Origin: a virus
IMG/VR virus record: IMGVR_UViG_3300032268_000973
Coordinates: 62,001-126,000 of that record
Strand: one strand, 5' to 3'
DNA: 64,000 bases
Shown here: one piece after another, positions 7,001-62,987 of the stretch
Position numbering within the stretch: position 1 is the first letter of the stretch
Layout of the letters: the number at the start of each line of letters is the position of its first letter
Position numbers and translations under genes: made by a program
The notes under the pieces: model-generated
Databases searched by the model: none
Seen by the model: only the letters and a program-made list of their open reading frames with translations
Told to the model about the DNA's origin: nothing

Positions 7001-8610
7001 GTGGTAGTTCGGGAACAAGTGGTACTTCAGGAACTAATGGAACTTCAGGGACTAATGGAACTTCAGGGACTAGTGGAACCTCAGGGACAAGTGGAACTTC
7101 AGGAACCTCAGGGACAAGTGGAACATCAGGAACTTCAGGGTCATCAGGATCAAGTGGAACATCAGGAACTAATGGAACTTCTGGTACTAATGGGACTTCT
7201 GGAACTGATGGAACTTCTGGAACTAGTGGAACTAGTGGAACATCAGGTACAAGTGGTACCTCAGGATCTAGTGGAACATCAGGTACAAGTGGAAGTTCAG
7301 GAACTAATGGGACTTCAGGAACTGATGGGACATCAGGAACTTCTGGAACAAGTGGTACATCGGGTTCTTCAGGGACATCTGGAACAAGTGGAACTTCAGG
7401 AACTTCTGGATCAAGTGGTACTAATGGAACATCAGGAACCTCTGGTACGAATGGAACTTCAGGTACTAGTGGAACGAGTGGGACTAATGGAACTTCGGGA
7501 ACATCTGGAACAAGCGGTAGCTCGGGAACAAGCGGAACATCTGGATCAAGTGGAACTAATGGAACATCTGGTTCTTCGGGAACAAATGGAACTTCAGGAA
7601 CAAATGGAACTTCAGGGACATCAGGTTCTTCAGGTACATCAGGTTCTAGTGGAACATCAGGATCAAGCGGATCTTCAGGTACGTCAGGATCAAGCGGATC
7701 TTCAGGTACGTCAGGATCTTCAGGAACTAATGGTACATCAGGAACTAATGGTACATCAGGAACTAATGGTACATCAGGAACTAATGGTACATCAGGATCT
7801 AGTGGAACGTCTGGAACAAATGGTACATCAGGAACTAATGGTACTTCAGGATCTAGTGGATCTTCAGGAACTAATGGAACGTCAGGAACAAACGGAACTT
7901 CAGGAACAAACGGAACGTCAGGAACTAATGGAACGTCAGGAACAAACGGAACTTCAGGATCAAGTGGATCTTCAGGTACATCGGGTACAAACGGTACTTC
8001 AGGTACAAACGGTACTTCAGGAATAAATGGAACATCTGGATCAAGTGGAACAAATGGTACATCAGGTTCAAGCGGTTCTTCAGGTTTGGGAACTATTAAC
8101 TCTAATGTTGACAATTATGTTCTAACCGCAACAGGTAGTGCAGGTACTATTCAAGGGGAAGCTAACTTTACTTTCAATGGTACAACTGCAAGAATAGGAA
8201 TTGGTTCCGCTGGAGCTTTAGGAGTTGGAACAGCCGCTGCGACTCCAACCACAGATGGATTGATAAGAGCGACAAATGATGTGATTGCATATTTTAGTTC
8301 TGACAAGAGATTAAAGACGAATGTAGTTCCTCTCTCAAATCCTTTAGAAAAAGTGAACAAGATTGGTGGATATGAATTTGATTGGATTGTTAAAGAAGGT
8401 ATACATGAAAACGAAGGACACGATATTGGAGTAATCGCTCAAGAAGTTGAATCAGTTTTGCCCGAAGTTGTTACAACTAGAAATAATGGATTCAAAGCGG
8501 TTAAATATGAAAAACTAGTTGCTCTTCTAATTGAATGTGTTAAAGAACAAAATAAAGAAATAGATTCACTTAAAAAACATATTGGTTACCCATCGTCCGA
8601 TACCGAATAA
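4036..8610 (+). CDS. Collagen-like tail fibre with peptidase S74 C-terminal chaperone
   Basis: 1524 residues. Layout: N-terminal anchor (1-50), short GTS stretch, globular island (about 86-200), long (Gly-Thr/Ser/Asn-Ser)n stalk (about 200-738), second globular island (about 745-910), second stalk (about 912-1350), then a C-terminal domain. The stalk triplets GTS, GSS, GTN and GTD keep Gly at every third position, as in collagen-like phage fibres. The end carries the S74 signature SDKRLK (Ser1422, Lys1427), followed by [16 protein letters not shown] and a coiled-coil tail. In this family the domain trimerises the fibre and cuts itself off just before the catalytic Ser, releasing about 103 residues here. 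Very likely a trimeric receptor-binding fibre. Many Thr/Ser make the stalk a possible glycosylation target. Confidence 0.9.
4633..6249 (+). repeat. GTS-triplet repeat block 1 with 117-base super-repeat
   Basis: Tandem 9-base units (GGN-ACN-TCN/AGT variants) encode Gly-Thr-Ser type triplets. A higher-order period is visible: the GGAAGTAG marker recurs at 5101 and 5218, and at 5695, 5812 and 5929, each time 117 bases apart (39 residues, 13 triplets). GGATCAAG markers at 6037 and 6163 continue the series at 108 and 126 bases. Codon choice varies between units, so the protein is more conserved than the DNA. Confidence 0.9.
6774..8084 (+). repeat. GTS-triplet repeat block 2
   Basis: Second collagen-like stalk of the same fibre, with the same 9-base logic but richer in GTN and GSS triplets, especially after 7430. 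At 7735-7800 the unit GGAACTAATGGTACATCA is repeated almost without change, suggesting recent slippage or unequal recombination. Confidence 0.9.
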
Positions 8611-40326: not shown

Positions 40327-40821
40327 ATGAGTCAAGTTTTTTTCACAGATAACGAATGTGATGAGATAATTTCATTATCAACCAAATTAAAAACCCATCA
40401 TTCGAGTGAATGGTGGATGGGGGACAAAACGAGTTATTTTGCTTGGCACATAGAAAAAAATGAGGAAACAAAATGGATATTCGATAGACTTACATTATTT
40501 TTATCTAAAAATACCAATTTCAAACTATTAAAAGATATTGATATGATTCATTTACAAAATGTAAAACAGGGTCATGGGTTCGAACCACATATTGATAAAC
40601 ATAGTGAGTATAACATTGGAGTTTGTTTGAATATCGATTATGAGGGGGGAGAACTGATATGTCATGATTATAAATTATATATCCCCAAAATAAAAGGGCT
40701 TATCTATTCCTTTTATGGAACTCAGTTACATGAAGTAAAGAAAGTTTTATCAGGAGAACGGTGGTCGTTGATCGCATTTCTCGACAATACTATTATTGAA
40801 AGAAAAAAAGGTCTTATTTGA
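40327..40821 (+). CDS. Fe(II)/2-oxoglutarate oxygenase, prolyl-4-hydroxylase-like
   Basis: 164 residues. The order is MIHLQNVKQGHGFEPHID (His-x-Asp metal ligands), VCLNIDYEGGELICHD, IYSFYGTQLHEVKKV (distal His) and GERWSLIAFL (Arg for 2-oxoglutarate). All four key residues are present. This is the minimal P4H-type fold. Targets could be a sugar hydroxylation or prolines in the Thr-Pro linkers of the phage fibres; the sequence does not decide. Confidence 0.8.
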   Translation: MSQVFFTDNECDEIISLSTKLKTHHSSEWWMGDKTSYFAWHIEKNEETKWIFDRLTLFLSKNTNFKLLKDIDMIHLQNVKQGHGFEPHIDKHSEYNIGVCLNIDYEGGELICHDYKLYIPKIKGLIYSFYGTQLHEVKKVLSGERWSLIAFLDNTIIERKKGLI

Positions 40822-40889: not shown

Positions 40890-43625
40890 ATGAAAGGAAC
40901 ATTATTTTCAGCCGATTTTGTAAAAGATTCTAATGGTAATTTAAGATTATTAGAGTTGAACACCGACACTGGATTCATAGACCAAGAGTTGGTGAATTTC
41001 AACTTCGATGAATTCTTAACAGTTTTATCATCAAATAATCTCACTACTTTAGATATTATTTACAAACCATACTTACATATTGATTTTGTGAATAAACTCA
41101 TTGAGGAGGTTAATACCAATCTCCCATCAGTAACAACGGTCAATCTACACGATGAGAATATCAACTCTATCTATCCAACATCCGTAATGGATAATGGAGA
41201 TAACTTTATACTAAGAATTGCCTACGATGAGTCTGCAATTTTTGATAGTACTTATTGTAAAAATAGACTAAATGTCTATAATCTTTTCACCGAAAATTCA
41301 ATTACTGATAATTGTGTTGCCTATTATCATTCCTCCGCTTTAGGAACATTCAACACTCTGGACAAAGAAATAAATGATAGTAATATTCCAGATGTTACAA
41401 TGAAAGACATTAACGAGTCTTTTAATCCGATTGATTTTTTCAAACTTGGTGGAAGTGGAACCCCCGAAGAGAAATGGGATAATTTTATTGCAGCAAATAG
41501 CAGTGATGATAAGTTGATAGAACAATATCATTTTCATTCGAGCGTTCCCGATTCTGATGGACACATGACTTCTATCAGGTATTTTGGTTTAGTATACGGA
41601 CCGAATTTGGATGTTATTACTCTACACACTTATAAAATTAGTGCTATATTCGAGTTGCCATCTACTATAGATTTTGATCCTGACACAAATAAGATTCAAG
41701 ATCAACATTACTATGAGTATACAACAAACTTTGTAAAAAGTGATTCTGGTGGAATTTTATCCAAACATGAAGTTCTAATGGACGATGATTCTTGGATAGA
41801 AATATCTCAGATACAAGTGGGTGAAACTATCAAGTCTTATTATGTTAGTGGATCTCCACAAAGCGAATCAGATTTAAACTCTCTGACATGGAATTATGAC
41901 GGAGGTCAATTTCCTATTGGATCATACATAACAACTTCTGATGTAATTTTCAAGGATGTTCAAACTATGAAGTATGGAGCTATGATGGAGATGGTTGTGG
42001 ATAGTGATTCGTTATTTTCGGGAATAAATAAAAAATATTTAGTTTTTGATAGTTTAACAAACAAAAGTAGTTTCAAGTTTATTTCAGAAATAAATGCAGT
42101 TACCGATTCACTTTACGACTTGGATGGAAACTTGATACAAGTTGATGAACTAAATTTTTATGTATCAACAGATAAAAATTTGACTTTTGTTGAAATAGAT
42201 GTTGAAGATACTGACACATATATAATAAATGGATCCACGGCTTTCCACAGTCTTGTATCTCACAACTCTCCTTGTTTTGTTGCAGGAACAAAGGTTATGA
42301 TGGAAGATGGGTCAACAAAAAATATTGAAGATGTTGTCGTTGGAGATATCGTCATGTCTTTTGATTTCAAAAATGACGAGGTAAGGGCTAGCAAGGTCAA
42401 TAATATTTTTTCAAAGAAGGTTAGTAAAATAGTAACCTACGAGTTTGATAATGGAGGTATTTTGAAGGCAACTTTAGATCACCCATTATTTGTGAATGGA
42501 AAAGGATGGTCCTCCTATGATAATGAGCTTTCAAATAGTTTATATAATATTGGAGAGGAGGTTCATAAAATAGAGGAAGGAGATTCGGTAAAATTATTGA
42601 ACAAAGATGTTAATTTGATTAAAATGACAATTTCTGATGAGGAAATAAAAGTCTTTAATTTATCAGACGTTGAGGTAAATCATAATTATTTCGCAAATGA
42701 TGTCTTAGTCCACAATAGAGCTTGTTTTGTTGAGGGGACTCTTATCGAGATGGGAGACGGATCTCAAAAACCAATCGAACAAATTGAAGTCGGTGACATC
42801 GTTGTATCATGGAATGTATTGGATAACACAAAGGAAAATCAAAAAGTTACTAATTTAATAAAACCAATTCATGATGATTTGGTTAAGTATACTTTTGATA
42901 ATGGTACGGAAATCGTTTGTACATTTGATCACCCATTCTTTGTTAATGGATTTAATTTATCTTCATACTCTCCATTACTCACGAATGAAAGATACAGCTT
43001 CAATGAAAAAGTGAGTGAAATAGAATTAGGGGATAGCGTTAATTTGATAAATGGAGAAAATAGTAGAATTGTTTCGATTGAAGAATTAGAAACCAAACCA
43101 ACCCAAACTTATATTTTTGAAGTCGAAAATAATCATAATTTCTACGCTAATGGTATTTTAACACATAATAAGGCATGTTTTGTAAATGGAACTAAAGTTT
43201 TGATGGGAGATGGTACCGAAAAAGGAATCGAAGAAATCGTGATTGGAGACACAGTAATTTCTTATAATGAAGATCTACATGTGTTGGAGGAAAAAAAGGT
43301 TGTTGACGTTAATTCACCAATTCATGATGATTTGGTCGAGTATGTTTTTTCTGATGGGAAAACTATAATTTCAACTTACGACCACCCATATTATATTGAA
43401 GGGTTAAAATTAGCATCATACAAACCTAGTTGGACAAACGAACGATACCAATTACCTGATGTTACCGAAATAAAAGTTGGGGATAAATTATATACCTCTA
43501 ATGGTAAAACTGTAGAAATATTATCAATAAGAGAACTTGAAAGAATAAACACTCAGACTCATATCATATCTGTCGATGGAAATCGGAATTTTTATGCAAA
43601 TGGGATTTTAGTACATAACAAATAA
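40890..43625 (+). CDS. Protein with three tandem Hint (intein-like) domains plus one degenerate copy
   Basis: 911 residues. Residues 1-290 are an unrecognised N-terminal region (starts MKGTLFSADFV; LRLLELNTDTGF follows). A degenerate Hint-like unit seems to run from about 292 (HEVLMDDDSWIEISQIQVGE) to SHNS near 460 and lacks the starting Cys. Three full Hint domains then follow back to back, starting at C462, C612 and C763, about 150 residues each. Each has CFVxGT, DG-x2-K-I-E-x4-GD, a DHPxFxxG block and a C-terminal N(F/Y)(Y/F)ANxxLxHN. Junctions are HNSPC, HNRAC and HNKAC, and the last ends in HNK at the stop. Such domains cleave or splice peptide bonds. With no typical +1 Ser/Cys/Thr at two junctions, cleavage is likelier than splicing. 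Confidence 0.85.
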   Translation: MKGTLFSADFVKDSNGNLRLLELNTDTGFIDQELVNFNFDEFLTVLSSNNLTTLDIIYKPYLHIDFVNKLIEEVNTNLPSVTTVNLHDENINSIYPTSVMDNGDNFILRIAYDESAIFDSTYCKNRLNVYNLFTENSITDNCVAYYHSSALGTFNTLDKEINDSNIPDVTMKDINESFNPIDFFKLGGSGTPEEKWDNFIAANSSDDKLIEQYHFHSSVPDSDGHMTSIRYFGLVYGPNLDVITLHTYKISAIFELPSTIDFDPDTNKIQDQHYYEYTTNFVKSDSGGILSKHEVLMDDDSWIEISQIQVGETIKSYYVSGSPQSESDLNSLTWNYDGGQFPIGSYITTSDVIFKDVQTMKYGAMMEMVVDSDSLFSGINKKYLVFDSLTNKSSFKFISEINAVTDSLYDLDGNLIQVDELNFYVSTDKNLTFVEIDVEDTDTYIINGSTAFHSLVSHNSPCFVAGTKVMMEDGSTKNIEDVVVGDIVMSFDFKNDEVRASKVNNIFSKKVSKIVTYEFDNGGILKATLDHPLFVNGKGWSSYDNELSNSLYNIGEEVHKIEEGDSVKLLNKDVNLIKMTISDEEIKVFNLSDVEVNHNYFANDVLVHNRACFVEGTLIEMGDGSQKPIEQIEVGDIVVSWNVLDNTKENQKVTNLIKPIHDDLVKYTFDNGTEIVCTFDHPFFVNGFNLSSYSPLLTNERYSFNEKVSEIELGDSVNLINGENSRIVSIEELETKPTQTYIFEVENNHNFYANGILTHNKACFVNGTKVLMGDGTEKGIEEIVIGDTVISYNEDLHVLEEKKVVDVNSPIHDDLVEYVFSDGKTIISTYDHPYYIEGLKLASYKPSWTNERYQLPDVTEIKVGDKLYTSNGKTVEILSIRELERINTQTHIISVDGNRNFYANGILVHNK

Positions 43626-43633
43626 TATAAAAA

Positions 43634-43786
43634 ATGGACGTTTCAAAACACCCTCAACTTTACAAAAAAAAACCGCTCAGCGAAGTAAAAAATAGAACAA
43701 CATCTCAGTTATCTACAACCGAAAAACAACGAATCGATAGTGTGATTGGTAAATTTTTTGAGTTGTTCGTGAACAAACATCTGTAA
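43634..43786 (+). CDS. 50-residue protein between Hint and SET genes
   Basis: ATG at 43634, stop TAA at 43784-43786 overlapping the ATG of the SET gene (TAATG). 50 residues, basic, with a Ser/Thr-rich middle and a C-terminal amphipathic helix (IDSVIGKFFELFVNKHL). The start-stop coupling and lack of other coding space support it as real. No family recognised. Confidence 0.6.
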   Translation: MDVSKHPQLYKKKPLSEVKNRTTSQLSTTEKQRIDSVIGKFFELFVNKHL

Positions 43787-44223
43787 TGGATCCATACGAT
43801 TACATAAAAGATTGTGTTTTTGTAAAACTTAAGCCAAGTAAAATTTCAGGAATAGGAGTCTTTGCAATCAAAGATATTCCTAAGGATACAATCTTGTTTC
43901 AAACTTGGGAGGGTGAGACTGGATTTTACCCAATTAGTCAAAACCAATTGAACGAATTGGATGATGAAGTACGTCGACATATTCAAGATTTATTCATATA
44001 TTCTTCAGATTTCCCAAAAGATACTAACATTTATGTAAAATTAACAAATGGTTGTCATTGGGTTTATACTAATCCGTACCTATTCATTAACAGTGGATAT
44101 TATGAAAATAAATCAAACGTTGATAAAGATGGTATGAACTCTTTGAGATTTATAAAAAAAGGGGAAGAGTTACTTAGTAACTACCCAAGATATGAAAAAA
44201 TGATTAAGAAAATTTTAATATAA
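43786..44223 (+). CDS. SET-domain protein (putative protein lysine methyltransferase)
   Basis: 145 residues, essentially a bare SET domain. KISGIGVFAIKDIPKDT is the N-terminal SET strand pair; the pseudoknot segment FINSGYYENKSNV corresponds to the usual NHSCxPN, with NSG instead of NHS; FIKKGEELLSNYPR gives GEEL-x3-Y with the catalytic Tyr. These enzymes use SAM to methylate lysine side chains. The His of NHS, which contacts SAM, is changed, so activity is uncertain. In a phage the target could be a virion or host protein. Confidence 0.82.
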   Translation: MDPYDYIKDCVFVKLKPSKISGIGVFAIKDIPKDTILFQTWEGETGFYPISQNQLNELDDEVRRHIQDLFIYSSDFPKDTNIYVKLTNGCHWVYTNPYLFINSGYYENKSNVDKDGMNSLRFIKKGEELLSNYPRYEKMIKKILI

Positions 44224-44811
44224 ATGGAAATAATTAAACTTTCAAACCAAGAAATTGTTTACAAAAGTCGATACAGTGGAGTTTATAATAAAAATGATTT
44301 TTTATTAAGGTTTGAACAGAATAAAAAAATTTCAACTATTCCTGAAGACAATTCTATATGGATAGAATTTGAATGTGATGAATTCAACTCAATTGATTCT
44401 TTTATCATGAATTTGATTGAAAAAGAAATTGCGAAAGAAAGTTTCAACTATTACGCTAAACATAGTTGGGTTTATACTCAAAAAAAAGGGTTTGATATGA
44501 CTTACATGCATCAACATTTGATACTACATTCAAGCACCAACCGATCACTCATCAAGTCTGATTATACATTTACGTTTTATGTTCAACAACCTAAAAATTT
44601 GATTGGTGATGAAGGGAAAATAATATTTCAAACAAAAGATGGTGTATTACATAAATTTTTACCAGAAGAAATGGATATTTTTATATTTCCTGCTAATATG
44701 CTTCATACCGCAGTACCAACGCCACTTCATGATGAATTTAGGGTGGTTTATGCTGGAAACTTTGCGTATAATTTTTTTGATAAAAAAACTAACAATTTGA
44801 ATCTAATTTGA
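44224..44811 (+). CDS. Putative 2-oxoglutarate/Fe(II) oxygenase, paralogue of the gene at 16136
   Basis: 195 residues, starting directly after the SET stop. YMHQHLILHSS (proximal His cluster), YTFTFYVQQPKNLIGDEG, PEEMDIFIFPANMLHTAVP (distal His) and FRVVYAGNFAYNF (Arg) follow the jelly-roll oxygenase order and align with the protein at 16136-16687. The first metal motif is HQH here and HTHQ there, so the exact ligands need a structure. Likely hydroxylase acting on an intermediate of the cluster. Confidence 0.6.
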   Translation: MEIIKLSNQEIVYKSRYSGVYNKNDFLLRFEQNKKISTIPEDNSIWIEFECDEFNSIDSFIMNLIEKEIAKESFNYYAKHSWVYTQKKGFDMTYMHQHLILHSSTNRSLIKSDYTFTFYVQQPKNLIGDEGKIIFQTKDGVLHKFLPEEMDIFIFPANMLHTAVPTPLHDEFRVVYAGNFAYNFFDKKTNNLNLI

Positions 44812-44891: not shown

Positions 44892-45341
44892 ATGATAAAA
44901 TACATAAATTCATTTTTGGATGATTGGGAAGTAAATTACTTTATCGACTTATTAACTAACTCTGAAATATCGTATCATGAAGATGATGTTTATAAGTTTT
45001 ATTTTTTGAATTTAATCAATTTAGAACTAAAGACAAAAAAATTCGAAAGCTTTGTCTTCAACAAATTTCGGATACAGATGACAAATGAAACTATTGATCA
45101 AATTGAGGCTTCTCATGGGCATTCAAATCCGTGGTCATTTGTAATTTTTTTAAATGAAAACTTCTTGGGAGGAGAAATTGTTTTTGGCAATAGACTATTT
45201 CTTCCAAAGAAAGGTGATATGATTTATTTTTCGGGAAATGAGAAACACTCCGTAAAAAATTGTGTTGGAAATAGATATACCTTAGTTGGGTTTATGTCAA
45301 ATAATCCTCTGAATATAGAAGATAGTAAATCAATTATTTAA
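44892..45341 (+). CDS. Small Fe(II)/2-oxoglutarate oxygenase, P4H-like
   Basis: 149 residues. An N-terminal YINSFLDDWEVNYFIDLL helix region, then EASHGHSNPWSFVIFLN, FLGGEIVFG, LPKKGDMIYFSGNEKHSV and NRYTLVGFM reproduce the minimal P4H fold. The proximal ligands read His-x-His rather than His-x-Asp, while the distal His and the Arg are present. It may bind iron differently or be inactive. It is a distant paralogue of the 164-residue protein at 40327. The next gene starts directly after its stop. Confidence 0.7.
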   Translation: MIKYINSFLDDWEVNYFIDLLTNSEISYHEDDVYKFYFLNLINLELKTKKFESFVFNKFRIQMTNETIDQIEASHGHSNPWSFVIFLNENFLGGEIVFGNRLFLPKKGDMIYFSGNEKHSVKNCVGNRYTLVGFMSNNPLNIEDSKSII

Positions 45342-48544: not shown

Positions 48545-49202
48545 TATAAATCATAATTTCATTATAGTATGGAATAAAATTATCATTCCAAATTTGACTA
48601 GTAATATCAATTCCATCGAATGAGATAATTTTAAAATTAGGGAAAACTCGTAAATATAAATCCCTGAAAACAGTGAATTTGGATTTCATCCAAGGTTCAC
48701 CTAAATGCCATTCTCCAACTATTTTTCTCACATTATTTTTTATCCAAAACAAATTTTCAACAGTGAATATGTCGTATTCACCTGTTTCACAATCAGTTTT
48801 TAAAAAATCAATTTTTTGTATATTATAATCTTCAATAACTTTTTGGAAAGTTGTTGAATACAAAACATCATTGTTTGAATTTTCGAATACAAATTTAAAA
48901 TCAAATTTACCTATTTTATCAGATATCCCTTTGTTTATGTGTGTAACGTTTCCATGTCTTGTATTCATTGCAAGTGTTTTGAATTCTTCAAAACTTGGTT
49001 CGAAACAAAACACGTGTTTTGGGTTACGATCTAAAATCGAAAATGTAAATGGACCCAAACTAGCCCCGATATCAAAAACGATATCACCTTCCTCGACTTC
49101 GAAAAATCTTTCGTAGATTTTATCTTGAAAAATTTCTTTAGTCACAGTTTCTTGGAATCCATTATAACACTTAGGTTCCCATATAAAATTTTCTAAATTC
49201 AT
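48528..49202 (-). CDS. FkbM-family methyltransferase
   Basis: The ATG at 49202 gives an ATGA overlap with the upstream gene and is preferred to a TTG at 49304 that would run 100 bases into it. 224 residues. EVEEGDIVFDIGASLGPFTF is SAM motif I, VFCFEPSFEEF is motif II, and IDFLKTDCETGEYDIF is the FkbM signature, with Cys in place of the usual Val/Ile. Family members O-methylate sugars or polyketides. It probably methylates the glycan built by the giant protein upstream. Confidence 0.82.
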   Translation of the reverse strand: MNLENFIWEPKCYNGFQETVTKEIFQDKIYERFFEVEEGDIVFDIGASLGPFTFSILDRNPKHVFCFEPSFEEFKTLAMNTRHGNVTHINKGISDKIGKFDFKFVFENSNNDVLYSTTFQKVIEDYNIQKIDFLKTDCETGEYDIFTVENLFWIKNNVRKIVGEWHLGEPWMKSKFTVFRDLYLRVFPNFKIISFDGIDITSQIWNDNFIPYYNEIMIYIDNRN

Positions 49203-52200
49203 ACAAGTAAATTTTGAATTTGATTTATTACCATTTTTGATGTGATTGAAGTGTGACATTCGAATTGTCTTGAAGTCCCTTTGTGGAGGGGACACCAATT
49301 CCAATCACCTCTATCAAACTTGAAGTCGGCATTGTTCCAACAACTGTTACATACGTTAGGATTTGTAATTCTTGTGCAATTTGAAGTAAACTCATGGTCT
49401 TTTTCCGTAAAGTTACTAATCATGACTACGTGTTTTCCTAAAGCCCAAGATAACCAAGACAACCCGCTAGAAAGACCTATAAAGAAGTCACTATGATAAA
49501 TAACATTCATTGTATTTTCTATAGATGTGTCAGTAATTTTTTCACAATTATCGAATGCATTATCTTCCTTAGATACATTGATGACTTTATATCCAATGGA
49601 AGTTAGGTGATTTATCAATTCTTGCCATCCTTCTCTTGTCCAAAATTTACAACCAGCGGTAGAGTTGGTTGCAATTGTAATATATTTTGTATCATACGGG
49701 TTATCTTTTGGGACGAATGAAATTCTTGGCCTAATTTCTTCAAATGGTAACCCCAATATATTTGTCGCAGCTTTCTGTAATGGAATTGTGTTTGGTAAAG
49801 TTGGTTCTTTATTAAGGTCATAAAACCAACCGAGATTATATTGCCCAAATATACCGTGAACTATACTTCCAGGTTCCACAAATTCTAAATTTGGATAAAC
49901 ATCCTTGAATAACTTGTTCCAATAAGTACAAACTGTAACATCACATTGATGAACCTCTTTGAATTTTTCAACATATGGTAACCAAGCAATGTTGTCCCCC
50001 AAAGATTTACTATCGAAATTTATAAAAACACGAAGACCTGTATAGTCCAAAGTTTTATCGTATATCAAATCTCCATTCTCAAATATTTTTGTTCTCCAAC
50101 GGGTAAAATATTCCCTATTCAATTTTATCCAATGATTTGATTTAATGACATTGTGATAATGACAATAATTTTCTTCGTCGAACAACATGATGCTAAAATC
50201 GCTATCACTTTCTCCTTTGATTTCTAAGAAAGGTTGGTTAATAAAATATTGGGTTATTGAAATATTTGGATCAATCATATTATTTTTTTTGATTTCATTA
50301 GACATTATTTTTTTATAAAAAATATAATGAGTATCTGCAAATTTCTCTAAAGAACCTTTAGTCTCATTATATTTTCTTTCTGAACTTATTAGATCTCGTA
50401 ATATTTGAACATTTCTTTCCAAATCTTCTTCGAGATTTACAATGAATGGATCAAACATTTCCATGTATTGTGGTAAATTACGGCAAATAATTTTTAATCC
50501 ATAAGAAGCCGCTTCTCTCACAACTAATGGATTACATTCCCAAGTTGAATTGAAAATAAAAACATCTGAAGCTTTCATAAATGTTTCAATGTCTCCTCTT
50601 TCTCCCCAAATATGAACATTGGAAGGTAAATTCAACATTAATGGTTTCCAATATTCCTCAAAGTTTGGGGCTTGATTACCCACGAAATGGAATTCAACTC
50701 CCTCAGATTGAAAATATCTTGCGATATCGATAGCTTCCTTTTGATTTTTTCCTTGTGACCATAGCCCAACACTCAATACATGAATTTTTGTTGGGTCAAA
50801 GTCCAATTCCATTTGCGCGTTTGTCTGATCTTCTTTATTTCTGAATTTATTTTCAATCGGAAATTCCATTACCTCAGTTGGAGAAGACACATTTTTGAAT
50901 GTTTGTTGTTCATGGAATGGAGTACAAAAAGAGTATCCGTCGGGGTCATATTTCTTCATCAATTCTGGTTTAAACCAAATGTTGTGACAAGTTTCCACCA
51001 TTCTCCAAGTTCTATTATTATCATATAAAGCTTTCATTACAGTTCCTGAAACTTTATTGAATGAGTCAAAACCTTCTATCATTTCATCCACATGTACAAT
51101 ATCGATATTATTTCGTTTGATGATGTCGATTATCTTCAGTGAATCCGTGTCATTATTATTACCTAATGAATTCAGGGTCCAAAATCTATTTTCGGGAATA
51201 ATATTTTTGATAATATCTCGTTGAACGGTATATGTTGATGAATACAGGCAATATTCAACAACGTAGATTTCAATCTCAGGATAATTTTTTTGTAATGATT
51301 GAATTCTTTTCAATAGGTATGCTGGCATTCCTCCAGTCGATAAATGTGGGGCCAAATAAAGTATTCGGAGTTTTTTGGAAAACTTGTCTGAAAAAAACTC
51401 ATTATTTTTGTCGTTCCAAGGTGAGTTAATAAGCAAATTTTCAGAGATTGAAGTATCTCCAACTTCAAAATTTAATTCTGATAGTGTGGTATAATAAACA
51501 TCAGATGTAAGATTAGTTGCACTATAAAAATCTCTATTTACCGAAGCAAAATAATCCATAAATTTAAATTCCCCTCCGATTAAATTTTTACCTAAATTTA
51601 CATAATGGTTTGGCACACCATAAGCATCTGATACAATTAAACCGTGTAAACTTGAAGATAGAATCAATTCACATTCCAATAATTGATCTATAAATTCATA
51701 GATACCAGCGGTAATATTCACAATTTTTACCCCCAAATCTTCTAACTGGTTGATTGTCTTTAAACATAAATCCGATTGAAAATCTGAATAGTGGGGTATA
51801 ACACCATACTTATATCGTTTTTCAATATTCGGATTATACTTTTTCGGGAAAAGTAATGCGGGATCACCAAACACATTTGGAACATCCCATCCATTTTTCA
51901 ACAAACAATTTCTTGTTAGAGGGCCTCGAACTGCATAAACTTTTTGCGGTATATCACCTATGCTGTAAGGATCCAAACATCCTGGCCCCCAAACATAATC
52001 ATTGGGTTTGGAAAATAGGAGATTACTTCCGACAGATAAAATTTTACCATTTTTTTCAATCATTTGTCCCTCAGTGTCAAAATGAAAAACATCCGTATCT
52101 TCTAACGATTTCTGTGAAAAGTGAGTTAAAATATGTTTCGATACTATATCTCCCCAATTATTTTCAGGTTTTATATATTCGTATTTTCTTATATAGAAAT

Positions 52201-54943
52201 ATTTTTGGATATCGTGCATCATCATCTCCATTATTTCGGGATCTTTTTCTCCGTGAAAAAACAGGACTTGTTCTTTGATTGATGGAGCTCTTAACCAATC
52301 TCCCAAAAAGTTTAAAACATCTGGACCTTTATATTCCACTTGTGTAAACATCTTCTTAACAGTTTCCAAAGTTCCGTTGACGTATAGGTATGGAAGACCA
52401 ATGTCTATTTTGTATTTCCAAAGTAAAACATTCAAGATGGTTTCTTCATCATAAGGGGCATAATGGCTTATGTCTTTTTCAATTTTTGGGTGTTTACACA
52501 TCCAATACCATTCATCTAAGAAGTCCAAAGTATTTTGACCTGCCACAAAGTAACCCGTTTGTCTGTATAGTTTTCTGACCGATTGGTCGACACTAAAAAG
52601 TTCACAAGCATTGTGTTCTAATGTATCACATAATTCCCCTCCTAATGGTCCTCCTTTACCTCTTCCATTGTATGTAAGATATTCATATACACCTTCAACA
52701 AAATATGGGAAAGGTGATTTACGGTCGTAGTAAAAGAAGATTGTGTCAACTAATGGTGTTGCAACTGAATCACTATCCACATAACAAACGTTGTGGGCAT
52801 ATTTTTGAAGAGCGTCTTTAATTATGAGAGGTCTTTGAATTAAAATCTTATATATTGTTGGATTTTTTCTATCAATATAAAAATTACCTTCAACGGATAG
52901 GTATGAATTTTCATCTGGTTGGTCAATATCACAATCCCATCGTATGACTGTTACGTCATCCACATTTATTTTTTTGTTGGAGTTAATCAAATAAACTATG
53001 ATTGGAATTCCACTATATCTTCTGATTGATTTGACACACATTGTGACAACATCCAAATAATTTTCAGTACAATATAGAACAAACGCTTTGTCTGATTTGG
53101 ACTGATACTTATCTGTGAAGTAATACCCGTATTCGTCATTCGAATAGATCATATTCAACTTTGGATATCTTGATGACATTACCTTAGGGGTCAAATCATA
53201 TTGATGATGGGTTTCATACTTATTTCCAAAGCATTCACTTTGTTTCATCAAATAATGAACCCCAACCAAGCAAGTTTTAAATTTGAAGTGTATTCGATCA
53301 ATCAAATCAACTGATTGAACTTCTGTCAAGTGATCCAATACATCCCCTAAAATTAAAAAATCGTATTCACTGAAGTCAAAGTCACATATGTCTCCAATGA
53401 ATACGTTGTCATATTTTTCTCGTAAATTAAATTCACTAACATAGGGTTCCCAAATTTCTATGCAATCCATTTGATAACCAAATTGCCTTAATAAGTCAGA
53501 ATATGTTCCTTTTCCTGGCCCAACATCTAAAATTTTACTGTCTAAAGGAATATTTGCGATTATAAAATCCCTTACTTCTTCTTTATAAAATTTATTATTT
53601 TCGGAGCAATATTGAACAAGTTCTTTGAAATGTTTTGGAGATTCTTTTGAATTAGGATTCATAATTATGAATTCGTCTTTAGAAACGTTAGTTCCATACA
53701 AATAACCGTGATAAGTAATAGCACCGTTGTATATCAAATTTATTTCATTTTCAATTTGAAATTCTCTAACTGGAGAATCAACTCTGTAAAATCTATAATC
53801 ATCTATTAACGATAGGATTGCTTTGCTGTAAGCGACAGGACCCGTCAAATGAAGGACAGCTTTTTTTCCTTTTTTTCCATCATAATTTCTTATGTTTTCT
53901 TTGACAAGTTCAATAGTTTGTTTTAAAAAAGGGTGATTTGGAACACTTATAATGTGCCAGTTTTGAAATTCCCCCAACTGGTATTCTAATAATTCATTCC
54001 AATCTTTTCCAATCCAATGAGAGAGTAAGTATTCATCTGTTGGGAGAATTGTTTCACTCAAAGGTCTACTCGTTGAAGATTTGATATCTAGATAGACACC
54101 TCCGATTTTATAAATCAAAAGGTATCTGAAAAAATCAGCTCTACATGATCCATAATTGGGATTTATACTTAGATATAACGAAAGTGTTTCATCATCATAA
54201 TGTTCTTTGATAAAATTGTAACAATCTTCGTCATCATAAAATCTATATTCGAAATCAGGATTCATTTTTTTTAAATTTTCTACCGTATTCTCGATTTCTT
54301 TTGGTAGTTCTTTCGTCCTGAATGTTTGATGAATTATTTTAGGTATTTTTATTTTTGTGAGAACAACATCGGTTTCATTGTAACTTATTTGATAATTTTT
54401 GAATCTTTGAAGTAATTTATTTATTTCTTCGATGTTGGATACATTTGGGTGTTTTTCGAATTTGATTTTGTCAGCAAATAATATTGGTAATTTTTCACAC
54501 ATATCTAAATAGTCATTCAGAATTACGTGATCATATCCTTCAGTATCAATTTTTAAGTATCCAATAGACCCTACTTCTTCACTTTGAACTAGAGTCTTCC
54601 AAGAAACGGTGGGTACTTTATCAATTTTTACAATTGAATTGTATAGTTCCTCACCTAATTCTTTAATAGCAAAAGGATGAGGGTGATTTACGCTATTACT
54701 TCCTCTTATCCACCATTTTAAATCGTGTTCTTTAATTTTTTCATCAGGTATGTAATAAATGTCTATGTCACCGTCCACATCTGATACCGCTAGTTGAATT
54801 TTTTTGACGTTTTTTTTATTTGGTAATCTGTCTAAATAATATTTTATCGGTTCTATACTAAGACCAACCATATTATCGTCCGACGATTCAATTAAAGTGT
54901 CAAAATCGGATGTCCCGATTTCTATAAAATCGTAATGTTTCAT
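49199..54943 (-). CDS. 1914-residue seven-domain glycan-modifying protein
   Basis: Domains in order. About 1-195: FkbM-type methyltransferase (GYLKIDTEGYDHVI; motif I loop reduced). About 200-440: GT32-like (IPKIIHQTFRTKELP, SCRADFFRYLLIYKIGGVY, DIKS). About 450-615: class I methyltransferase (KILDVGPGKGTYSD). About 621-890: GT-A-like transferase (CYVDSDSVATP). About 920-1190: polysaccharide pyruvyl transferase-like (NNWGDIVSKHIL, AVRGPLTRNCL, FGDPALLFP, SSSLHGLIVSDAYG). About 1191-1560: GT4 (APHLSTGGMPAYL, VLSVGLWSQGKNQ, STWECNPLVVREAASYG). About 1565-1914: BAHT autotransporter-heptosyltransferase-like domain with CNSC, WCPLH and FEC iron-site cysteines. No frameshift is seen. It may act as a cytoplasmic assembly line that builds and transfers one glycan. 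ATGA overlaps on both sides. Confidence 0.82.
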   Translation of the reverse strand: MKHYDFIEIGTSDFDTLIESSDDNMVGLSIEPIKYYLDRLPNKKNVKKIQLAVSDVDGDIDIYYIPDEKIKEHDLKWWIRGSNSVNHPHPFAIKELGEELYNSIVKIDKVPTVSWKTLVQSEEVGSIGYLKIDTEGYDHVILNDYLDMCEKLPILFADKIKFEKHPNVSNIEEINKLLQRFKNYQISYNETDVVLTKIKIPKIIHQTFRTKELPKEIENTVENLKKMNPDFEYRFYDDEDCYNFIKEHYDDETLSLYLSINPNYGSCRADFFRYLLIYKIGGVYLDIKSSTSRPLSETILPTDEYLLSHWIGKDWNELLEYQLGEFQNWHIISVPNHPFLKQTIELVKENIRNYDGKKGKKAVLHLTGPVAYSKAILSLIDDYRFYRVDSPVREFQIENEINLIYNGAITYHGYLYGTNVSKDEFIIMNPNSKESPKHFKELVQYCSENNKFYKEEVRDFIIANIPLDSKILDVGPGKGTYSDLLRQFGYQMDCIEIWEPYVSEFNLREKYDNVFIGDICDFDFSEYDFLILGDVLDHLTEVQSVDLIDRIHFKFKTCLVGVHYLMKQSECFGNKYETHHQYDLTPKVMSSRYPKLNMIYSNDEYGYYFTDKYQSKSDKAFVLYCTENYLDVVTMCVKSIRRYSGIPIIVYLINSNKKINVDDVTVIRWDCDIDQPDENSYLSVEGNFYIDRKNPTIYKILIQRPLIIKDALQKYAHNVCYVDSDSVATPLVDTIFFYYDRKSPFPYFVEGVYEYLTYNGRGKGGPLGGELCDTLEHNACELFSVDQSVRKLYRQTGYFVAGQNTLDFLDEWYWMCKHPKIEKDISHYAPYDEETILNVLLWKYKIDIGLPYLYVNGTLETVKKMFTQVEYKGPDVLNFLGDWLRAPSIKEQVLFFHGEKDPEIMEMMMHDIQKYFYIRKYEYIKPENNWGDIVSKHILTHFSQKSLEDTDVFHFDTEGQMIEKNGKILSVGSNLLFSKPNDYVWGPGCLDPYSIGDIPQKVYAVRGPLTRNCLLKNGWDVPNVFGDPALLFPKKYNPNIEKRYKYGVIPHYSDFQSDLCLKTINQLEDLGVKIVNITAGIYEFIDQLLECELILSSSLHGLIVSDAYGVPNHYVNLGKNLIGGEFKFMDYFASVNRDFYSATNLTSDVYYTTLSELNFEVGDTSISENLLINSPWNDKNNEFFSDKFSKKLRILYLAPHLSTGGMPAYLLKRIQSLQKNYPEIEIYVVEYCLYSSTYTVQRDIIKNIIPENRFWTLNSLGNNNDTDSLKIIDIIKRNNIDIVHVDEMIEGFDSFNKVSGTVMKALYDNNRTWRMVETCHNIWFKPELMKKYDPDGYSFCTPFHEQQTFKNVSSPTEVMEFPIENKFRNKEDQTNAQMELDFDPTKIHVLSVGLWSQGKNQKEAIDIARYFQSEGVEFHFVGNQAPNFEEYWKPLMLNLPSNVHIWGERGDIETFMKASDVFIFNSTWECNPLVVREAASYGLKIICRNLPQYMEMFDPFIVNLEEDLERNVQILRDLISSERKYNETKGSLEKFADTHYIFYKKIMSNEIKKNNMIDPNISITQYFINQPFLEIKGESDSDFSIMLFDEENYCHYHNVIKSNHWIKLNREYFTRWRTKIFENGDLIYDKTLDYTGLRVFINFDSKSLGDNIAWLPYVEKFKEVHQCDVTVCTYWNKLFKDVYPNLEFVEPGSIVHGIFGQYNLGWFYDLNKEPTLPNTIPLQKAATNILGLPFEEIRPRISFVPKDNPYDTKYITIATNSTAGCKFWTREGWQELINHLTSIGYKVINVSKEDNAFDNCEKITDTSIENTMNVIYHSDFFIGLSSGLSWLSWALGKHVVMISNFTEKDHEFTSNCTRITNPNVCNSCWNNADFKFDRGDWNWCPLHKGTSRQFECHTSITSKMVINQIQNLLV

Positions 54944-59429: not shown

Positions 59430-62400
59430 ATGGAAGTTCAATGTACGATAAATAATATAACAGGACAGACCCCCTACGACATATATGTTTGTCAAACGGA
59501 TGGTAGTGGTTGTTTTTATATTTCAACTATAAATAACTCATCTTTCCCTTATGTGTTTAACATACCAGCACCATACAACACTTCACCAAATTATATGATC
59601 AAGGCAATTGACGCCAATAACTGTATTATATCAGGAAGTAGCGCTGTTCAATTCTTTCCAACTCCTACACCAACCCCTTGGGACTTCTGTTACGAACTTG
59701 ATGGAGGATTCAACAATCAAGCGGAGGCTGCGGTTGAAGATTCGAGTGGAAGAATTATTTTTGGTGGTATTTTTACAACTTATAGTGGGCAATCATTCAA
59801 TCGAATTGTTCGTGTCAATAGTAATGGCAGTATTGATAACACGTTCACTATTGGAACTGGATTCGATAATGACGTTTATGCAGTTGAATTACAACCTGAT
59901 GGAAAAATTCTTGTTGGAGGTATATTCTCATCTTATAGTGGAGTTTCTGCGAATAAAATCATACGACTTAATTCTGACGGAACTGTGGATAATACATTTT
60001 CTAGTGGTTCTGGTTTTAATTTTTCAGTATGGTCTTTTGCAGTACAACCTGACGGGAAAATAGTTGTGGGTGGAGGATTTACTACTTACAGTGGGCAATC
60101 GGCTAATTCGATTATCAGATTAAACAGTGATGGCTCGATTGATAACTCATTTAGTATTGGTTCAGGATTGAATAACATTGCATACGATATTATTGAACAA
60201 ACGGACGGTAAAAAGTTAGTTCTTGGTTCATTTACGTCTTACAGTGGACAAACACATAATAGAATTCTTAGATTGAATAACGACGGGACCGTTGACAATA
60301 CCCTGAACGTTGGGACTGGATTCAATAGTGAGGTGTATTCATGTGTATTGGAAGATGATGGAAAAATGGTAATTGTAGGACTTTTCGACCAATTTAGTGG
60401 ACAAACTTACCGTCAAATTGTAAAATTGAATGCTGATGGATCGATTGATAATACATTTAATGTTGGAACTGGATTCCAAAGGTCTGTTGGATTATGTTTT
60501 GCTTTGAGTGTCTTCAAGTATGACACAAAATATTTTATTACAGGTGATTTTGATTTTTATAATGGAAATAGTGCAAATGGACTGATACAGCTCAATAGTG
60601 ATGGAAGTAAGGATACCTCATTCAATTACGGAACAGGATTATTATTTAGTGGTACTTCTTTCAATACAGGATTACTTCTCTCAAGCGGAGTTCACATAGT
60701 CTATGGCCAATTTACTCAATATAATGGATATGAAGTGAATGATGTGGCTTATTTGAATCCATTTGGTACTTTATTGAATTGTCCTCAATTGACACCAACA
60801 CCTACTGCAACGCCAACATTGACCCCAACAAATACACCAACAACTACAAGAACCCCAACAAATACACCAACAACCACTTCAACTCCAACAAATACACCAA
60901 CAACCACTTCAACTCCAACAACTACACCAACAACTACAACAACTCCAACTAATACTTCAACAATTAATATTACACCTACTGCGACGCCAACAAATACAAC
61001 AACAACTACAACAACTCCAACGCCATCCCCTACGTATGGTGGACTCACACCATTTGTTTCAGTTTGGAATACTTCGAATACTAGTGTAGGGTCGAGTGCT
61101 TCAAATCAGATTGCATTACCGCTTCAATCAAGCGGAGCTTATAATTTTGTTGTAAATTGGGGTGATAGTAACACCAACACAATCACGTCTTGGAACCAAC
61201 CTGAAGTGACTCATACTTACGCAAGTCCTGGCCAATATACAATTACAATTAGTGGAACTTGCGAAGACTTCGGATTTGGAGGAGGAGGTGATAGGAATAA
61301 ACTTCTGACTATTATATCTTTCGGGAATGTGGTTTTAGGTGATATTACAACACAATTCTCCAACTGTTTTAATTTAACTTTGACTGGAGTCACTGATACT
61401 CCTGATTTATCATCTATGACTACATTAGCGCAAATGTTCTATGGATGTAGTGGGTTGACTACAATTAACAATATAAATTTGTGGGATGTAAGTAACATAA
61501 CTAACATGCTGAGCATGTTTCAAGGGGCAACTAATTTTAACGATGATATAAGTTCTTGGGATGTTTCAAACGTGACTAATACGTCTTACATGTTCTCAGC
61601 GGCACAAGATTTCAATCAGGATATTGGTAGTTGGGATGTTTCTAATGTTACAAATATGGGTGGTATGTTCCAATTTGCAAGTAGTTTCAATCAAGATTTG
61701 AACACTTGGAACGTATCAAGTGCTACAACTTTTTCCTATATGTTCCAAGGAGCAACAGCATTTGATAGCAACATTAGTTCTTGGAATGTTTCGAACGCCA
61801 CAACTATGGTTCAAATGTTCGATCAAGCAACTTCATTCAACCAAAGTATAAGTGGATGGAATGTATCTAACGTCACAACCATGATTGGTATGTTTGGTTC
61901 TGCATCATCATTCAACCAAAATATTGATTCTTGGAATGTTTCTAACGTTACGAACATGGCGTCTATGTTCACTAATGCGGATAGTTTCAATCAGAGTTTG
62001 AATAGTTGGAATGTTTCTAATGTTACGAACATGGCGGGAATGTTTAGTTTGGCTAATGTATTCAATGGAGACATAACATCTTGGAATGTTTCAGGGGTGA
62101 CCAATATGGGCCAAATGTTTCTATCTGCAGTTAGTTTTAACCGAAATATTGGTAGTTGGAACGTTTCAAATGTAACAAATATGGGTCAAATGTTTGCTTC
62201 AGCGTCAATCTTCAATCAGGATATTAGTTCTTGGGATGTTTCGAGTGTAACAGATATGGGATCGATGTTTAATAGCGCTTTAGCATTTAACCAAAATATT
62301 GATACATGGGATGTTTCGAGTGTAACAGATATGTTCTTCATGTTTTCTAATGCAAATAGTTTTAATCAAAATCTTAATAGTTGGAACGTTTCAAATGTAA

Positions 62401-62987
62401 CTACAATGGAGTTAATGTTCTATGGTGCGGACAATTTTAATGGAAATGTCAGTAATTGGAATGTATCAGGAGTAACAAGCATGGCAGGAATGTTTTGGGA
62501 CGCGACTACATTTAATCAAAATATTGGTGGTTGGGATGTTTCAAATGTCACCGATATGAGTAGAATGTTCCGAAGTGCGGCGGCATTCAATCAAAACATC
62601 AGTGGATGGGATGTATCTAGTGTCACTAACATGCTAGAAATGTTCTATTTAGCCGCAAACTTCAATCAAAACATTGGTGGATGGGATGTTTCGAGTGTAA
62701 CAGATATGGAGGGAATGTTCAATAGTGCAAGTATTTTCGATCAAAATATCGGAAGCTGGGATATTTCTAATGTGACTAATTTTGTAGATTTCATGAACAA
62801 TAAAACATTTACGAATTATAGTTCAACTAACCTTAATGCTATTTATAATGGATGGAGTTTGTTGACCCTACAACCTAATATAGTGATTGATTTCAATACA
62901 ATAAAATACACTGCGGCTGGACAATCAGGAAGAAACATTTTGACAGGAGCCCCAAACAATTGGTCAATTACTGACGGAGGTATATAA
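59430..62987 (+). CDS. Fibre protein with delta-60 propeller-like and BspA/DUF285 repeats
   Basis: 1185 residues. About 1-80: shared fibre N-terminal domain (TPYDIYVCQTD, then IKAIDANNC). About 90-450: delta-60 repeats (DUF5122 type), with PDGKILVGGxFxxYSG and (I/V)xRLNSDGxxDNTF in about six copies. About 454-536: Thr-Pro linker. About 540-655: PKD-like VVNWGDSNTNTITSW and VTHTYASPGQYTITISG. About 684-1115: 17 copies of a 25-residue WDVSNVTNMxxMFxxAxxFNQNIGS unit (DUF285/BspA type). The end (AGQSGRNILTGAPNNWSI) is the usual cap of such proteins. These domains are common in Bacteroidota surface proteins. Probably a receptor-binding fibre. Confidence 0.88.
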   Translation: MEVQCTINNITGQTPYDIYVCQTDGSGCFYISTINNSSFPYVFNIPAPYNTSPNYMIKAIDANNCIISGSSAVQFFPTPTPTPWDFCYELDGGFNNQAEAAVEDSSGRIIFGGIFTTYSGQSFNRIVRVNSNGSIDNTFTIGTGFDNDVYAVELQPDGKILVGGIFSSYSGVSANKIIRLNSDGTVDNTFSSGSGFNFSVWSFAVQPDGKIVVGGGFTTYSGQSANSIIRLNSDGSIDNSFSIGSGLNNIAYDIIEQTDGKKLVLGSFTSYSGQTHNRILRLNNDGTVDNTLNVGTGFNSEVYSCVLEDDGKMVIVGLFDQFSGQTYRQIVKLNADGSIDNTFNVGTGFQRSVGLCFALSVFKYDTKYFITGDFDFYNGNSANGLIQLNSDGSKDTSFNYGTGLLFSGTSFNTGLLLSSGVHIVYGQFTQYNGYEVNDVAYLNPFGTLLNCPQLTPTPTATPTLTPTNTPTTTRTPTNTPTTTSTPTNTPTTTSTPTTTPTTTTTPTNTSTINITPTATPTNTTTTTTTPTPSPTYGGLTPFVSVWNTSNTSVGSSASNQIALPLQSSGAYNFVVNWGDSNTNTITSWNQPEVTHTYASPGQYTITISGTCEDFGFGGGGDRNKLLTIISFGNVVLGDITTQFSNCFNLTLTGVTDTPDLSSMTTLAQMFYGCSGLTTINNINLWDVSNITNMLSMFQGATNFNDDISSWDVSNVTNTSYMFSAAQDFNQDIGSWDVSNVTNMGGMFQFASSFNQDLNTWNVSSATTFSYMFQGATAFDSNISSWNVSNATTMVQMFDQATSFNQSISGWNVSNVTTMIGMFGSASSFNQNIDSWNVSNVTNMASMFTNADSFNQSLNSWNVSNVTNMAGMFSLANVFNGDITSWNVSGVTNMGQMFLSAVSFNRNIGSWNVSNVTNMGQMFASASIFNQDISSWDVSSVTDMGSMFNSALAFNQNIDTWDVSSVTDMFFMFSNANSFNQNLNSWNVSNVTTMELMFYGADNFNGNVSNWNVSGVTSMAGMFWDATTFNQNIGGWDVSNVTDMSRMFRSAAAFNQNISGWDVSSVTNMLEMFYLAANFNQNIGGWDVSSVTDMEGMFNSASIFDQNIGSWDISNVTNFVDFMNNKTFTNYSSTNLNAIYNGWSLLTLQPNIVIDFNTIKYTAAGQSGRNILTGAPNNWSITDGGI
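61480..62790 (+). repeat. BspA/DUF285 75-base repeats
   Basis: Seventeen full units of 75 bases (25 residues), plus a final partial unit, each starting at a TGG codon followed by GATGTTTC or AATGTTTC. Several units are nearly identical in DNA (TGGAATGTTTCTAACGTTACGAACATGG), pointing to recent duplication. Confidence 0.88.

Follow-up and report, generated by a model that had tools for sequence, protein, structure and literature searches.

A phage ATP-grasp-like protein with a tandem array of BIL-like Hint domains and a linked small gene

The array gene and its Hint units

In the current work, we describe a locus of a viral record in which a multidomain gene is followed by a short conserved one; the window, that is, the whole stretch of DNA analysed, is 64,000 nucleotides long. 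The open reading frame at exactly 40890-43625 (+) encodes 911 amino acids and comprises an N-terminal domain, a degenerate Hint unit (unit 0) and three intact Hint units (units 1-3). The features of the locus are as follows:

40327-40821, + strand: 2OG-Fe(II) oxygenase (PF13640, 8e-7), directly upstream of the array gene and not a constant part of the locus
40890-43625, + strand: gene for the ATP-grasp and Hint-array protein, 911 aa, whose plan is shared by at least 61 distinct viral-contig proteins
40890-41756, + strand: domain modelled as ATP-grasp, residues 1-289, GspS / eukaryotic glutathione-synthetase class (AF2, Foldseek, ADFVKDSNGNLRLLELNTDTG motif)
41751-42266, + strand: unit 0, degenerate Hint, residues ~288-459, ending in HN (AF2, Foldseek, hhalign)
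42273-42716, + strand: Hint unit 1, Cys462-Asn609, block B T-L-D-H, +1 Arg
42723-43169, + strand: Hint unit 2, Cys612-Asn760, block B T-F-D-H, +1 Lys
43176-43619, + strand: Hint unit 3, Cys763-Asn910, block B T-Y-D-H, then one Lys and the stop codon
43634-43786, + strand: conserved small partner gene, 50 aa (MDVSKHPQLYKKKPLSEVKNRTTSQLSTTEKQRIDSVIGKFFELFVNKHL), supported by linkage, dN/dS and a reciprocal scan
43786-44223, + strand: SET-domain protein (PF00856, 1.2e-5), whose start codon overlaps the small gene's stop codon (TAATG)
44224-44811 and 44892-45341, + strand: two 2OG-Fe(II) oxygenase-like genes (PHROG 81, 5e-12; PF13640, 1.4e-6)

An earlier note on this DNA had read three tandem Hint domains in the protein, and this reading holds in detail: the intact units begin at Cys462, Cys612 and Cys763 (codons at 42273, 42723 and 43176; spacing 150, 151 and 149 residues), and the junctions are HN-SP-C, HN-RA-C and HN-KA-C as described, with the protein ending in HN-K and a stop. 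The linkers between the intact units are two residues long. The resemblance is not accidental: three Pfam Hint/intein models match the protein three times each above their curated cut-offs (PF14890, 86 bits; PF01079, 69 bits; PF07591, 56 bits), the NCBIfam model intein_Nterm likewise matches it three times, and the best PDB sequence matches are Tetrahymena BUBL1 BIL2 (8e-16, best for unit 2) and Clostridium CthBIL (1e-5). Block F reads NRNF in unit 3 versus NHNF in the other intact units. Because the three units are only 35-44% identical to one another, they are no assembly duplicate; this origin of the array is ruled out, and three-Hint arrays also occur on five independent contigs (L005, L007, L012, L086 and L117).

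All three intact units show the Hint fold, Cys1 and block B T-x-D-H of type A BIL domains. The residue after HN (+1) is Ser in unit 0 only, and is Arg, Lys and Lys in units 1, 2 and 3, respectively. An intein is defined by Cys, Ser or Thr at +1 and by two exteins, whereas here +1 is Arg or Lys and nothing but one Lys follows as a C-extein. Judged by these residues, units 1-3 have the features of type A BIL domains and not of inteins.

The earlier note had also proposed a degenerate fourth Hint domain upstream, and this unit proved to be real. Unit 0 has no significant Pfam match of its own; its AlphaFold2 model (pLDDT 87.8) nevertheless finds BIL2 (6y75, E 3e-9, TM 0.70) and CthBIL (2lwy, E 3e-8) in Foldseek, followed by inteins and the Hedgehog Hint domain, and a profile of 46 relatives aligns to the intact units with an hhalign E of 4e-7. 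Chance resemblance is ruled out by these matches. Neither Cys1 nor the block B His is left, while the final Asn is kept in 46/46 sequences and the His before it in 93%, with a median column conservation of 41%. Unit 0 thus appears to retain the residues required for C-terminal cleavage through cyclisation of Asn, without the thioester half, and may still cleave in this manner. It also carries a conserved motif of its own, lPsGSy.TsS, and Ser31, Ser60 and Ser65 are invariant.

The N-terminal domain and the family across viral contigs

The 460 residues before the first Cys, previously treated as a single N-terminal part, in fact form two domains, the ATP-grasp domain (1 to ~289) and the degenerate Hint (~288-459). 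Residues 1-289 have no match in Pfam or among PDB sequences, and the ATP-grasp models of Pfam stay below significance on the domain (best ATPgrasp_ST, E 0.016 in 2/56). The AlphaFold2 model, built with 56 relatives (pLDDT 89.4, pTM 0.85), was searched against the PDB with Foldseek, and the top seven matches were all ATP-grasp proteins of the GspS/GSS type (E 4.6e-6 to 4e-3, best probability 1.00), the sole class to score well and consistently; the matching folds include E. coli YgiC and YjfC as well as yeast, plant and nematode ATP-grasp proteins of the glutathione-synthetase type. The TM-score against YgiC is a moderate 0.43, and a viral structure library gave nothing below E 0.001.

At the sequence level, hhalign pairs the ADFVKDSNGNLRLLELNTDTG motif of the domain with YgiC, and aligns it to a 12-member profile of the YgiC class with an E of 1.9e-4 over 27 columns. 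Asp9, Glu22, Asn24, Lys172 and Arg230 are invariant in the 56 sequences; the first three align to D102, E115 and N117 of YgiC, and would, as in glutathionylspermidine synthetase, be metal ligands. An Arg that is invariant in the YgiC class (Arg100 in the profile, two residues before the Asp) is replaced by Ser or Gly in this family, so the activity or the substrate of the domain may differ. We therefore model residues 1-289 as an ATP-grasp enzyme of the GspS/YgiC class, which is likely, though not certain, to be active. The domain resembles YgiC, YjfC and glutathionylspermidine synthetase in its fold and its Asp-Glu-Asn motif (D..LLExNxDT), and differs from YgiC/YjfC in its length (289 versus 386 aa), in the position of the motif at the extreme N-terminus, in the loss of the class Arg and in its fusion to Hint domains. 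YgiC and YjfC are presented as peptide-spermidine ligases in a paper that cites Pederick 2023 on this point (PMC12568646), and they bear that name in RefSeq as well.

Relatives were recovered by scanning viral contigs with alignments: the Hint alignment gave at least 319 loci, and the N-domain alignment gave 112 relatives, 80 of which were kept. Scans of the same kind of contigs with single-sequence patterns had returned nothing, the patterns being too specific. Among the matches listed, at least 61 distinct proteins carry the N-domain, and the only one without a Hint is a fragment at a contig edge (L152). Beyond the region of unit 0, one Hint is present in 25 proteins, two in 28 and three in 7 (variant terminal units counted), and on the N-domain tree both the number of Hints and the type of the last Hint changed at least six times. 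At least one Hint in all members, with a changing number, is what would be expected if one self-processing unit is needed and the count is free.

Consecutive Hints in the family are separated by linkers of one to about ten residues. The +1 residue is Lys or Arg in 79/102 Hint units, and exactly one Lys follows the last HN in 39 proteins. Of the 102 units, 101 have Cys1 and 101 have the block B His; when the 151 columns of 101 distinct units are ranked by conservation, the block B His is first, Cys1 third, the block B Thr seventh, the Asn eighth and the penultimate His ninth.

Several variants deserve mention in their own right. The last Hint lacks HN in eight proteins (L093, L094, L096, L097, L100, L124, L137 and L158); it ends ...SGLGDN.LLN..F.RQ, resembles type B Hints (no Asn) and is scattered on the N-domain tree. 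In the array gene at 5989-8160 of L106, a stop codon shortens the last Hint and an in-frame remainder up to HNK follows, which represents either a broken terminal unit or a sequencing error. Hints with +1 Lys also occur, singly or in pairs, inside other phage proteins (L035, L050, L052, L056, L060, L061 and L062), often after Gly- or Pro-rich stretches; the host proteins in L056 and L062 are virion-like.

Outside these contigs, a pattern scan of 84,980 genomes of prokaryote species found no relative and hence no clue to the host, and tblastn with the N-domain found none in 50,697 phage records. Phage glutathionylspermidine synthase-like genes (136 phage records) belong to the same ATP-grasp class and are recognisable YgiC homologues, to which the array family is only distant kin; it has no tblastn match in that collection. 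Its absence from the isolated phages searched makes the family invisible to current annotation.

The small downstream gene and its surroundings

Downstream of the array gene, a nearly constant distance (~142-170 bases) separates it from the next long gene, and this interval contains a small ORF of 41-53 codons in 58 of the 60 loci with sequence there (53 distinct sequences); the ORF is absent from the loci of two distant array proteins (L023 and L031). The small gene is under purifying selection: comparison with eleven close relatives gave dN of 0.10-0.31 and dS of at least 1.86, near or beyond saturation, and the closest pairs have a dN/dS of about 0.06. Searching in the reverse direction, with the small protein as query, returned 21 loci, all with the array gene or its contig-edge remainder (L176, L185) directly upstream, and added contigs new to the family (L172-L175, L178 and L187). 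In the present record the gene is single copy, and no paralogues of the N-domain, the Hints or the small protein were found elsewhere in it.

A basic, Lys-rich composition marks the small proteins, and the pI calculated for a dozen of them is close to 10. Tyr-Lys lies near the start in 49/53, the C-terminal half looks amphipathic and the end is often KHS or KHL. The small proteins match no PHROG, NCBIfam or PADLOC family, and no PDB entry below E 1. Cys occurs in 0/53 of them, by chance or perhaps through avoidance of reaction with Hint thioesters.

The third gene varies; by Pfam counts (n = 49) it is 2OG-FeII_Oxy_3 in 22 loci, SET in 13 and other families in the rest, and radical SAM proteins recur near array loci (neighbour cluster 2 in 21/61). 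In two cases (L036:6065-6565, also L161; L172:4151-4639), a separate Hint-like protein of ~165 aa, without Cys1 and without HN, follows the small gene in place of SET or 2OG.

Elsewhere, the window encodes a 1524-aa protein that matches collagen-like tail-fibre families (4036-8610) and could be hydroxylated by nearby 2OG oxygenases; a 1914-aa single-ORF fusion of an FkbM methyltransferase with several glycosyltransferase and pyruvyltransferase domains (49199-54943, - strand); and an 1185-aa protein (59430-62987) that combines about ten BspA-like DUF285 repeats with beta-propeller repeats of the DUF5122 type. Models of T4 capsid and terminase proteins had no match, so this attempt to place the phage fails; as the Gp23 control was silent too, the test with that control carries little weight.

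A possible two-gene module and its alternatives

Type A BILs end in HN, lack a +1 nucleophile and mostly cleave, sometimes splicing (PMC4031507, PMC7765530). The phage units resemble them, for example CthBIL (PDB 2lwy), in the Hint fold, Cys1, block B T-x-x-H, the HN end and the lack of a +1 nucleophile; unlike CthBIL-type BILs, however, they stand up to three head-to-tail after a degenerate copy, strongly prefer Lys or Arg at +1 and end one Lys later. More than one BIL per polypeptide is also found at the Tetrahymena BUBL1 polyubiquitin loci (BIL2, PDB 6tmm, 6y75), but there BIL2 sits between folded ubiquitin-like domains, whereas the phage Hints are consecutive, with short linkers, and the domain in front of them is an ATP-grasp domain rather than a ubiquitin-like one.

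We consider the locus a two-gene phage module, in which an ATP-grasp ligase with a self-processing tail of type A BILs acts with a small partner or substrate, a reading to which we give about half of our confidence. Unit 0 would cut after Asn459 by Asn cyclisation, freeing the ATP-grasp domain together with unit 0. In each of units 1-3, a thioester would arise at Cys1 and the last Asn would cyclise, such that the tail disassembles into single Hints or acyl groups pass to nearby amines; the first of the thioester steps may be slowed by the Pro that precedes Cys462 (-1). The ATP-grasp part would then use ATP to activate a carboxylate, possibly that at the small protein's C-terminus, and join it to an amine. 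The folds, the conserved residues, the changes in array length, the linkage of the genes and the purifying selection are computational results; we infer the cleavages and their order from conserved residues, and the ligase activity and its substrate from gene linkage and class membership; linkage is also what makes the small basic protein, which would work with the array protein, most likely the substrate or acceptor of the ligase. The earlier suggestions of staged cutting, release or crosslinking by the Hints are all plausible forms of self-processing, given the strong conservation of the catalytic residues, the cleavage known from related type A BILs and the isopeptide bonds made by at least one of these (PMC4031507, PMC8616854).

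The Lys or Arg usual at +1 is among the points in favour of another explanation, modelled on BUBL loci, in which the conjugation is done by the Hint array itself: the N-terminal part would be held as a thioester at Cys462 or a later unit, and the amine of a Lys would attack it, giving an isopeptide product without ATP. Donors could be the small protein, with its conserved Tyr-Lys and its basic, Lys-rich composition, or the +1 Lys, including the lone one after the last HN; moreover, BIL2, which forms an isopeptide bond with Lys (PMC8616854), is both the top PDB sequence match of unit 2 and the top fold match of unit 0. We judge this course of events possible but on balance unlikely, because Arg, which is common at +1, is unable to attack in this way, the reaction at Cys462 would require that unit 0 remain uncut, no ubiquitin-like domain was detected (among the matches of the array protein, or for the small protein against the PDB), and the conserved ATP-grasp motif would be left without explanation. 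A further explanation takes the small protein for a RiPP-like precursor that the ATP-grasp domain would modify together with neighbouring enzymes of the 2OG-Fe(II) oxygenase, SET or radical SAM families, with the BIL tail only maturing the ligase. In most loci the next gene codes for such an oxygenase or for SET, radical SAM proteins recur nearby, and a fungal pathway with a 2OG oxygenase and a YgiC-like ATP-grasp protein exists (PMC12568646). A graspetide-like cluster would have a precursor gene beside that of an ATP-grasp enzyme acting on peptides; here a small gene does adjoin the ATP-grasp gene, but it matches no known precursor family or core motif. 2OG-Fe(II) oxygenases are frequent throughout these phage regions and the third gene is inconstant; the small protein is conserved over its whole length, beyond a core, and no core with typical RiPP residues was seen, Cys being absent throughout. 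A RiPP-like role is, in our view, distinctly unlikely.

A purely structural or oligomerising role for the Hint tail, for instance in a virion protein, with its chemistry lost, is more doubtful still: Cys1, the block B Thr and His, the penultimate His and the Asn all rank within the top nine columns, against which stand the one unit per protein that lacks Cys1 and the related Hints in virion-type phage proteins (L056, L062). Ordinary inteins inserted in a phage enzyme are almost certainly the wrong explanation, even though intein models score on the array. Most proteins end one residue past HN, +1 is never Cys, Ser or Thr in units 1-3, several units are directly consecutive and their removal restores no known protein; with no C-extein and no endonuclease, inserted inteins were ruled out.

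Returning to the two-gene module, one specific and rather improbable form of it would be a phage protein-tagging system, in which the ATP-grasp ligase, once released by the BILs, attaches the dedicated protein of ~50 residues to host or virion amines. If true, this would be a viral counterpart, in kind and not by descent, of tagging of the ubiquitin or Pup type.

The single elements of the locus, type A BIL and ATP-grasp, belong to known kinds, and their combination is apparently new, which is an indication and not proof of novelty. A literature search that covered mostly papers outside subscription found neither the combination, nor a near-linkerless head-to-tail array, nor a fixed small partner, and no paper among those searched joins "ATP-grasp" with "intein-like" or "Hint domain". 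All this suggests that bacteriophages carry a two-gene module for protein modification that has so far gone undescribed. Since its tandem Hints keep their catalytic residues and have nothing folded between them to splice, the array poses directly the question of what BILs do in nature, and a ligase class that forms amides, together with a constantly linked small protein, offers two testable partners with which to address it.
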